A DNA stretch of 64,000 nucleotides from Bacillus sp. MM2020_4 (lineage in GTDB: Bacteria > Bacillota > Bacilli > Bacillales > Cytobacillaceae), in contig NZ_JAANMZ010000003.1 of the NCBI RefSeq assembly GCF_011250555.1, positions 124,001 through 188,000 on the forward strand. Direction: 5' to 3'. Below the pieces are notes generated by a model. That model worked only from the letters and a program-made list of their open reading frames with translations, was not told the origin of the DNA and did not search any database. Below, one piece after another: positions 30,684 through 62,602 of the stretch; the first letter of the stretch is position 1; each line of letters starts with the position of its first letter. The translations under genes were made by a program, and so were the position numbers.

Positions 30684-30716
30684 AAAAAATGCTGTCATTT
30701 GACGGCTTTTTTTTTT
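30684..30716 (+). terminator. Terminator after gapB
   Basis: GCTGTC (30691-30696) / GACGGC (30701-30706, one G-T), A-rich before and T10 after. It separates gapB from the speD promoter; the remaining 170 bases to 30888 hold only AT-rich sequence and that promoter. Confidence 0.8.
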
Positions 30717-30852: not shown

Positions 30853-30881
30853 TTGCAAAAAAAATATAAACCAAGTATACT
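30853..30881 (+). promoter_or_regulatory. speD promoter
   Basis: TTGCAA (30853-30858), 17-bp spacer, TATACT (30876-30881). The start of transcription would be near 30888, directly before the structured leader. Confidence 0.75.
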
Positions 30882-30887
30882 AGTCAT

Positions 30888-31028
30888 CGTGAACTTCTTG
30901 AAATCAGGTAGCGATAAATTACTTAAAGGGTTAGGACCTCTTTGGACTAACTTTCCCCCGTGGTAGTTAGAAGATGCCGTCAATAATAGGATTTCAAGAA
31001 ACCATCATAAAAGGTAAAAGGGGGAAAA
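30888..31028 (+). promoter_or_regulatory. Structured speD leader RNA, candidate translational switch
   Basis: An 11-bp perfect closing helix TTCTTGAAATC (30895-30905) / GATTTCAAGAA (30990-31000) encloses 84 nt. Inside, AGGTA (30906-30910) can pair with TACTT (30920-30924). CTAACT (30947-30952) can pair either with the upstream GGTTAG (30929-30934) or with AGTTAG (30965-30970). TTTCCCCC (30952-30959) is exactly complementary to GGGGGAAA (31020-31027), the speD Shine-Dalgarno. This looks like an RNA that exposes or hides the ribosome binding site. I do not recognise it as a known riboswitch class. Confidence 0.6.
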
Positions 31029-31409
31029 ATGAATATGGAAACAATGGGACGTCATGTAATCTCAGAACTTTGGGGTTGCGACTTTGAAAAATTAAATGAT
31101 ATGGACTTTATTGAAACCACGTTTGTCGAAGCTGCTCTTAAATCCGGTGCTGAAGTTCGTGAAGTAGCATTTCACAAATTTGCGCCACAAGGTGTCAGCG
31201 GTGTAGTCATTATTTCTGAATCACACCTTACTATCCACAGCTTCCCTGAGCACGGCTATGCCAGCATTGATGTGTATACATGCGGTGATTTAAACCCGAA
31301 TGTGGCAGCTGACTATATTGCTGAAGCGTTAAATGCCGAAACGCGTGAAAATATTGAAATTCCGCGCGGAATGGGGCCTGTACATGTAAAACAGGCGAAA
31401 GTTCTATAA
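31029..31409 (+). CDS. speD: S-adenosylmethionine decarboxylase proenzyme
   Basis: SpeD of the short bacterial class, which self-cleaves to give a pyruvoyl enzyme and makes decarboxylated SAM for spermidine synthesis. Counting from the second in-frame Met (31035, [17 protein letters not shown], the usual start), the cleavage site is Glu62-Ser63 in [18 protein letters not shown]; the Ser becomes the pyruvoyl group. [14 protein letters not shown] completes the core. Length 124-126 fits. The Shine-Dalgarno AAAAGGGGG gives ideal spacing to ATG 31029 and a long one to 31035. It has its own promoter and structured leader, so it is separable from gapB. Confidence 0.96.
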
Positions 31410-35930: not shown

Positions 35931-36217
35931 CATAGCAATTATATTTATTAAAAGTAATGATAAGGACAATAGTATTTCTTTACGGTTTTTTAGAGAGGGA
36001 GAGCGCCGGCTGAAAATCTCCTAACACGAAAAAAATACTTACCACCTTTAAACTTCAACTGTGAACACTGCATTTTCTATGGAGTAAGTAATGGTTGACG
36101 GTCTACAGCCGTTACCTGACCAAAGTCATTTTTCAGTGTTATGTACCTGAAAATGAAAAATTGGGTGGAACCACGTGTTTTCAAAACTCGTCCCTATTCC
36201 AGGGGCGGGTTTTTTTG
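35931..36217 (+). promoter_or_regulatory. T-box leader of thrS
   Basis: A tRNA-sensing antitermination leader. The T-box GGGTGGAACCACG is at 36163-36175. The terminator CTCGTCCCT (36187-36195) / AGGGGCGGG (36201-36209) with T7 follows. Uncharged tRNA-Thr pairs its NCCA end with the TGGAA bulge to allow readthrough. ACC triplets at 36041 could be the specifier, but I could not place the specifier loop with confidence. It fills most of the 426-base gap before thrS. Confidence 0.93.
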
Positions 36218-38361: not shown

Positions 38362-38507
38362 GTGAAAATTGAATACTTATTTTGGGGAAAAGAAGAAGCA
38401 CCCGCTTCTCACCTGATTGACGCATTTGGCAGTTGGCAGGTTTTACGTGAACTTTTTTATTACATTTGTTTCGTAAAGTGTGGGTGTATTCATCCGCACT
38501 TTTTTAT
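38362..38507 (+). promoter_or_regulatory. L20-type autoregulatory leader with terminator
   Basis: The leader upstream of infC-rpmI-rplT in Bacillus is bound by ribosomal protein L20, which promotes termination. Here the region contains a structured stretch (ACCCGCTTCTCACC and following) and a clear intrinsic terminator AAGTGTGGGTG (38476-38486) / CATCCGCACTT (38491-38501) with T6. Assignment as the L20 leader is by position and terminator, not by a covariance search. A 73-codon frame inside it is not a gene. Confidence 0.8.
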
Positions 38508-38606
38508 TTGTGTAACATTGATAAAAAGATTTTCAAACCTGTTGATTCAAGTAAGGTGTCTTGACCCGGAAGTTGTATTCTGATAAATCCTTGGAGGTGG
38601 CTAATT

Positions 38607-43411: not shown

Positions 43412-43690
43412 CAATTGATTATTATAAAAACGATGACGGAGAAAAGTATCATGTCAATTGACCATGTAGGGAGAAAGTGCCTCGACTGAAAGCACTTTTA
43501 TGGTTCAGGACAAGAGAAGTTCACCTCCCGAGTTGGCATCGGGACCATTTTTTGCGAAAAAAATGTAAAGATGCACCGGCATATGCCGTTATCCGAATGA
43601 AGCGAACACAATGTTTCTATACATATCGTGTTTACAAGGGTGGTACCGCGAATAACAAACCTCGTCCCTTACCAGGGATGGGGTTTTTTT
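43412..43690 (+). promoter_or_regulatory. T-box leader of pheST, Phe (TTC) specifier
   Basis: The T-box GGGTGGTACCGCG is at 43638-43650. The terminator CCTCGTCCCT (43660-43669) / AGGGATGGGG (43674-43683) with T7 follows. The specifier is probably TTC at 43520-43522 in GAGAAGTTCACCTC, matching phenylalanine. An open frame across this leader (43477-43770) is a by-product of the RNA, not a gene. Confidence 0.94.
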
Positions 43691-62320: not shown

Positions 62321-62362
62321 AAGTGAAAATTTAATTTACTATCACTTTTACGTATTAAAGTG

Positions 62363-62602
62363 AAGGTAGAGGTGCGAGCTTCAATAGTAATGGTTCTGAG
62401 AAGGATGAGCTTCGAAGATGAATCATGAAAGGGGATGTTCGCCGAAGTAAGGAAGGTCTCATTTCTTTCTTTGCTGGTTCTGCATTGAATAAATGCAGGA
62501 TTGTCAAGACCTTGGTCTTGGAGAGCTATCTTACATTGTGTGTACGGAAATTTATATTTTCGTGGTCTTAAAGCAATGAGATGCCCTTCTCATTGCTTTT
62601 TT
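62363..62602 (+). promoter_or_regulatory. Lysine riboswitch (L box) with terminator
   Basis: The aptamer runs about 62363-62533, with conserved pieces GTAGAGGTGCGAGCTTCA (start), AAGGGGATGTTCGCCGAAGT (middle), and CTGGTTCTGCAT. AAGGTAG and CTATCTT can close P1. The expression platform is a strong terminator AAGCAATGAGA (62571-62581) / TCTCATTGCTT (62588-62598) with T6. Lysine binding would stop transcription before lysC. It fills most of the 365-base gap. Confidence 0.95.

Follow-up and report, generated by a model that had tools for sequence, protein, structure and literature searches.

In the compact preQ1-II, SAM-II, and SAM-V RNAs, a loop pairs with the Shine-Dalgarno sequence in a pseudoknot, and in the SMK box (SAM-III), located in the leader of a SAM-pathway gene, the Shine-Dalgarno and anti-Shine-Dalgarno sequences pair with each other and this pairing closes a junction. 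These four families are included in Rfam 15. The gene considered here encodes S-adenosylmethionine decarboxylase (SpeD), which makes the decarboxylated SAM (dcSAM) needed for spermidine. A spermidine riboswitch has been described as a SAM-I variant with a four-stem junction; it has 13 representatives, functions by transcription termination, and counts speD among its associated genes (Salvail et al. 2023, PMC10853860). In B. subtilis, coimmunoprecipitation (coIP) with Hfq yielded a 79-nt peak between speD and gapB, listed as "Unknown or speD leader region" (PMC3574147, Table 2). A footnote to the table refers to previous reports of a leader at this locus, and the authors tentatively link Hfq-bound leader RNA to nuclease-resistant structured leaders; the entry itself is a coIP peak, and the table and related passages give no structure, conservation, or function for it. 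This Hfq-enriched RNA is most likely the element analyzed below. The literature searched, which excluded preprints and held few subscription papers, contained no description of this leader beyond the Hfq study and no occurrence of the core sequence strings tried.

The leader analyzed here lies in a stretch of 64,000 nucleotides from Bacillus sp. MM2020_4, which as a whole is referred to as the window. In the gene order, gapB is followed by a terminator-like hairpin and then by speD with a promoter-like site of its own (Table 1). The scan for terminator-like hairpins detected one, that after gapB, compared with 0.7 in shuffled sequences, and the scan for promoter-like sites detected four, including that of speD, compared with 2.8. 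The TATACT -10 hexamer and a TTGCAA-like -35 hexamer recur in the speD loci of relatives, as judged by eye. If transcription starts from this site, the 5' end would be located near 30888, giving a leader of about 140 nt (approximately 30888–31028). The bases at the inferred start (30888–30896, CGTGAACTT) hardly vary among the Bacillaceae loci: CGTGA[AG]CTT was present in 80 of 80, although these loci use different P1 registers. A scan of the window's leader found no terminator-like site between the promoter and speD.

Table 1. Features of the speD locus (positions in the window)
Feature	Position	Strand	Remark
gapB 3' side, terminator-like hairpin and T-run	30691–30716	+	hairpin itself 30691–30706
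speD promoter-like site TTGCAA-17-TATACT	30853–30881	+	consensus match only
Outer helix P1, 5' strand	30895–30905	+	pairs with 30990–31000
Helix P2, 5' strand	30907–30910	+	pairs with 30975–30978
Helix P3, 5' strand	30917–30922	+	pairs with 30963–30968; covariation
Conserved 41-nt core CTTAAAGGGTTAGGACCTCnnnGGACTAACTTTCCCCCGTG	30922–30962	+	all 172 copies of this length agree at 28 of 41 positions
Shine-Dalgarno mimic AAAGGG	30925–30930	+	its GGG is complementary to CCC in the anti-Shine-Dalgarno; predicted, invariant pairs
Hairpin P4, 5' strand GTTAG	30930–30934	+	pairs with 30947–30951
Hairpin P4, 3' strand CTAAC	30947–30951	+	pairs with 30930–30934
Anti-Shine-Dalgarno CCCCC	30955–30959	+	invariant in 172 of 172
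Helix P3, 3' strand	30963–30968	+	pairs with 30917–30922; covariation
Helix P2, 3' strand	30975–30978	+	pairs with 30907–30910
Outer helix P1, 3' strand	30990–31000	+	pairs with 30895–30905
speD Shine-Dalgarno GGGGG	31020–31024	+	proposed pseudoknot partner of 30955–30959
speD, S-adenosylmethionine decarboxylase	31029–31409	+	so annotated in a relative

A reading of the window made from its sequence alone (the sequence-only reading) had proposed that the speD leader is structured, and comparison with related loci bears this out. Scanning genome contigs with SpeD alone yielded 583 relatives, the best 80 of which were kept, and the core was found at all 80 of these loci, selected without reference to the leader. 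The genome of the window is Neobacillus-like: its best named relative, L003 (N. bataviensis), has a SpeD 100% identical to that of the window. Two of the Bacillaceae-type speD loci stand in records titled Pseudomonas sp. ISL-84 (L041) and Chryseobacterium sp. ISL-80 (L045), and these titles are probably wrong. The core was compared in 175 leaders including that of the window, 172 of which had a core of exactly 41 nt; since 94 of the 175 had been selected by a core 16-mer, the conservation of core positions 4–19 partly reflects this choice of leaders, but that of positions 20–41 does not. With at most one mismatch, the 16-mer occurred in 189 of 398 genomes of the class, some of which are chance matches, because the reversed 16-mer occurred in about 30 of the 398 (counted by eye). 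SpeD was detected at an E value of 0.001 or better in 276 of the same genomes. The downstream gene was read at 103 16-mer loci, leaving out about 50 of the 189 positive genomes (counted by eye): speD followed within 700 nt in 93, one locus was at a contig end, and the remaining nine, away from speD and missing the rest of the core, were rejected as chance matches. At the loci read, full cores always preceded speD, one of them lying at a contig end, and never another polyamine gene. The element is consistently associated with one pathway, which is a trait of translational riboswitches, and the restriction of full cores to speD is less easily reconciled with a sensor of spermidine than with one of SAM or dcSAM.

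The single-sequence fold of the leader (−30.0 kcal/mol, z 0.68) was matched by 148 of 200 shuffled sequences, and thus the case for structure rests on comparison. When every alignment column was compared blindly with every other across 98 representatives, pairs of helix P3 ranked 1, 2, 3, and 5 in excess pairing, and RNAalifold recovered P3 and the P4 stem unaided, together with the invariant GGG:CCC pairs in the core. In the comparison of 99 sequences, 142 cells were changed on both sides, against a mean of 44.8 in shuffled alignments (none of 500 reached the observed value) and at most 50 when the structure was slid along the alignment. All six pairs with two-sided changes fall in P3 (six of its seven), although the bare number of such pairs was unexceptional (5.6 in shuffles, 286 of 500 being as high). 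Two leaders were dropped from alignments A1 and A2, namely L103, whose range runs past the contig end, and L168, which carries an insertion; the 52 extra bases in the core copy of the latter are located at the variable tip of P4, where they would fit a hairpin loop. Among the distinct strand pairs of P3, 47 of 55 form at least five of the six pairs, compared with 29 at most in 2000 reshufflings, in a count that skipped 14 of 231 leaders by its regular expression. Twenty-three of the 32 poorly paired leaders share one common strand pair whose register is off by one base. Hairpin P4 is nearly constant within Bacilli. When distant copies were added, as 65 rows aligned to the model and hence biased towards it, 11 of 14 pairs displayed two-sided changes (8.1 in shuffles, one of 500 being as high), four of them in P4; GTTAG/CTAAC is replaced with GTTGGG/CCCGAC in L270–L272 and with GTGGG/CTCAC in L253–L257, L291, and L297.

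The perfect outer helix noticed in the sequence-only reading (P1, TTCTTGAAATC with GATTTCAAGAA, 11 bp) is real in the window and conserved beyond it. Each of its nine modelled pairs is present in 32 or 33 of the 33 Neobacillus-type leaders, each of the four pairs of P2 is present in 31 to 33 of them, and P1 is kept in a different register in three more groups of 15, 11, and 7 leaders; of the 71 distinct leaders from Bacillaceae, 66 fall into these groups, which were of our own choosing. The comparisons indicate that the leader has a conserved and covarying 5' UTR structure, another trait of translational riboswitches. The same reading had given CTAACT (30947–30952) two mutually exclusive partners. 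Both occur in the window, namely GGTTAG (30929–30934, including one G-U pair) and AGTTAG (30965–30970), but only the pairing with GGTTAG is conserved. AGTTAG was rejected as a partner, as it is exact in three of 193 leaders with CTAACT/C and in four when G-U is allowed; it also overlaps the 3' strand of P3, a covarying helix. The competition suggested by the comparison is one in which the C-run pairs either with the upstream mimic AAAGGG or with the real Shine-Dalgarno sequence.

The complementarity of the C-run to the ribosome-binding site, noted in the sequence-only reading, was confirmed: TTTCCCCC (30952–30959) is the exact complement of GGGGGAAA (31020–31027) at the speD Shine-Dalgarno. 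The 257 distinct leaders compared were divided into 231 of type I, which possess the C-run core, 16 of type II, and 10 unclassified. The Shine-Dalgarno zone contained five or more consecutive G in each of the 231 type I leaders and in 15 of 16 type II leaders, the remaining one having GGGGAGGGG. As a control, GGGGG preceded five of 46 genes of the window and one of 119 neighbouring genes in L003–L082; the control is weak, since gene starts were picked by a heuristic, and the former count indicates that a G5 Shine-Dalgarno is not rare in the window's genome. CCCCC and GGGGG hardly vary, and the pseudoknot therefore shows little direct covariation. Covariation in related leaders is strong in P3 and visible in P4 with distant copies, but slight between the C-run and the G-run. 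In the window, P1–P4 with GGG:CCC have an energy of −23.9 kcal/mol, P1–P4 with the C-run free −20.6 kcal/mol, and the duplex of the C-run and the Shine-Dalgarno alone −13.8 kcal/mol, which makes both states plausible. An upstream ORF was rejected, as no start codon was seen by eye at a fitting distance past AAAGGG in the Bacilli core.

Type II leaders have AAGGA...TCTCCTC in place of the core hairpin. The mimic AAGGA is present in 15 of 16, and 14 of 16 have AGGAGGGGGG, or a version of it with additional G, as the Shine-Dalgarno (L285 and L331 differ). All three strands have changed in type II, probably in few independent events and perhaps in one. Cross-pairing energies were calculated between type II leaders and the 71 type I leaders whose SpeD belongs to the same subfamily. 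The anti-Shine-Dalgarno of type II paired better with type II Shine-Dalgarnos (−9.56 kcal/mol) than with those of type I (−7.71 kcal/mol), and the mimics paired better with their own anti-Shine-Dalgarno (−4.22 versus −3.00 and −4.21 versus −2.40 kcal/mol). The type I anti-Shine-Dalgarno, in contrast, paired almost equally with its own and type II Shine-Dalgarnos (−12.93 versus −12.86 kcal/mol), and with longer segments it paired better with those of type II (−15.05 versus −12.72 kcal/mol). The test thus appears to favour pairing between anti-Shine-Dalgarno and Shine-Dalgarno only in part. That the leader is constitutive, its structure protecting the mRNA or displaying an extended Shine-Dalgarno without any switching, would suit the recovery of a leader RNA of the B. 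subtilis speD locus with Hfq (PMC3574147), but is very improbable in view of the conserved Shine-Dalgarno complement and mimic and the change of all three strands in type II.

The element extends well beyond the Bacillaceae. R1, a covariance model representing the core, gave matches at an E value of 0.1 in 47 of 80 chosen genomes, and 45 of the 47 places read (G161 was left out) precede a SpeD-like gene, the two exceptions being the weakest matches. In 398 genomes of the phylum searched with strict filters and an E value of 0.01, R1 matched 13, eight within the class and five outside it; three of the latter (L270–L272) precede SpeD, and the other two, at E values of about 0.01, do not. Weak R1 matches away from speD (L260, L261, L273, and L274; E 0.008 to 0.1) were rejected as chance, the rest of the core being missing. 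L270 and L271 look minimal, consisting of P3, P4, the C-run, a spacer, and the Shine-Dalgarno, with no P2. Several families of the class retain the frame TAGGAACCAGGATTCACT...AGTGAATGRCGYAGGTCCTAGCG...GCTAGGAAGGGGG with a diverged core inside it; all 30 loci read with an exact match to this frame precede SpeD, and R1 finds eight type I cores within frame loci, weakly (E 0.003 to 0.63). Among the unclassified leaders, as judged by eye, L242, L252, and L259 resemble diverged copies of the core, L282 and L284 keep a partial frame, L289 is a spurious partial match, and L275–L278, the leaders of four SpeD homologs, have no visible element. The conservation and spread of the element go far beyond what one sequence could reveal.

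Further features accompany the element in some groups. An extra hairpin between P2 and the Shine-Dalgarno, with a recurrent tip (e.g., GCTTGAAAGGGC), was seen by eye in many copies outside Bacillaceae-like genomes, namely L110–L117, L163, L164, L169–L173, L217, and L272. In L279–L288 and L300–L319, also by eye, a hairpin CCTAGC...GCTAGG directly adjoining the Shine-Dalgarno shares part of its 5' strand with the P2 3' strand GGTCCTA, so that the two pairings may be mutually exclusive, a second case of this kind. A phage origin was rejected, as the element had no match in phages or, as an exact 18-mer, in viral contigs. Among plasmids, one record matched, an Anoxybacillus record labelled plasmid (L340), with the element inside a gapB-speD block that reads polA-mutM-coaE-GAPDH-speD-nrdR-dnaI.

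The distribution among SpeD proteins bears on whether the leader is sensed by a protein, perhaps SpeD itself, that would repress its own translation by binding to the core. Long invariant motifs can serve as protein sites, and the element accompanies speD across diverged SpeD subfamilies. The diverged SpeD proteins, however, are only ~40–47% identical to that of the window over the match, and yet the core is largely unchanged. In addition, one family possesses two leader types for two SpeD paralogs: in nine of its 10 genomes searched, one paralog has a type I leader and another a type II leader. Loci L253, L254, L256, L290–L299, and L321–L327 come from genomes of this family in which one speD paralog has a C-run leader and the other a TCTCCTC leader. 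We consider such a protein-sensed leader rather improbable.

The absence of a known riboswitch family, as stated in the sequence-only reading, held up in Rfam 15. At the gathering score, no family matched a leader in the window and 18 related loci, and at a weak threshold, three leaders gave sub-threshold matches only; neither search matched SAM-I, and preQ1-II, SAM-II, SAM-V, and SAM-III were not among the matches of the leaders scanned. Elsewhere in the window, the Rfam scan identified a lysine riboswitch (62359–62536), two T-box leaders (43424–43672 and 35948–36198), and an L20 leader (38384–38511). Like preQ1-II, SAM-II, and SAM-V, the speD element has a proposed Shine-Dalgarno pseudoknot, but it differs in core and gene and lacks an Rfam match to them. 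Compared with the SMK box, which it likewise does not match in Rfam, its Shine-Dalgarno pairing would cross helix P3. The element resembles the SAM-I-variant spermidine riboswitch in being a cis-acting RNA at polyamine genes of Gram-positive bacteria, and the feedback logic on spermidine synthesis described for that riboswitch (PMC10853860) is also proposed here. However, the speD element consists of a P3–P4 core with a Shine-Dalgarno complement and has no SAM-I match, and the window's leader has no terminator-like site; 257 distinct speD leaders (247 classified) were compared here, versus the 13 spermidine riboswitch representatives. The two are different RNAs.

At the level of sequence, the conserved fold, the gene association, and the complementarity of the C-run to the Shine-Dalgarno are established. 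In our judgement, the leader RNA very probably controls translation of speD. We favour, with less assurance, a cis-acting and riboswitch-like switch of translation, and to a similar degree a small-molecule riboswitch of some kind. Comparison shows a series of nested helices that continues through P3 up to hairpin P4, with the nearly invariant core at the P3–P4 junction. In the mechanism we propose, the C-run would pair with the mimic AAAGGG in the core hairpin in the ON state, allowing ribosomes to bind; in the OFF state, the freed C-run would pair with the downstream GGGGG, and the resulting pseudoknot across P3 would block initiation. Less certainly, a small molecule of the polyamine pathway may bind the P3–P4 core and stabilize the OFF state. 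The feedback logic leads us to prefer spermidine, the end product, over the other candidates, dcSAM, SAM, and MTA, but as an identification of the ligand it is a tentative choice that may well prove wrong.

The two pairings could also be tipped without a ligand, by Mg2+, polyamine ionic strength, or temperature. Competing pairings can give a graded response without a pocket, and polyamines bind RNA broadly (PMC10853860). Against this, the invariant core positions, several of which are outside the helices, in our judgement exceed what a thermometer or salt switch needs, and we regard a ligand-free structure as a poor candidate. Starting again from the favoured riboswitch-like switch, a bolder reading can be formulated, for which we would claim only a minority chance: the element may be an ancient riboswitch class of the polyamine pathway, dominant in Bacilli and some relatives and far wider in distribution than the known spermidine riboswitch, in which mimic, anti-Shine-Dalgarno, and Shine-Dalgarno swap partners under the control of spermidine or dcSAM. 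The same speculative reading would have this triplet re-coded as a unit, from AAAGGG/CCCCC/GGGGG to AAGGA/TCTCCTC/AGGAGGGGGG, even between the speD paralogs of one genome.

Further polyamine riboswitch classes are expected surely to await discovery (PMC10853860). The speD element is a strong candidate for such a class, present in close relatives of B. subtilis and in much of the class. It is probably an ancient, almost unchanging RNA structure able to hide the ribosome site, and a widespread uncatalogued switch for polyamine supply. If it binds spermidine, dcSAM, or SAM, the element would explain how these bacteria set their polyamine supply and would be a compact RNA in which to study the structural basis of polyamine or SAM recognition. 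Should it bind none of the three, the constancy of 28 of 41 nucleotides in 172 copies would still demand an explanation.
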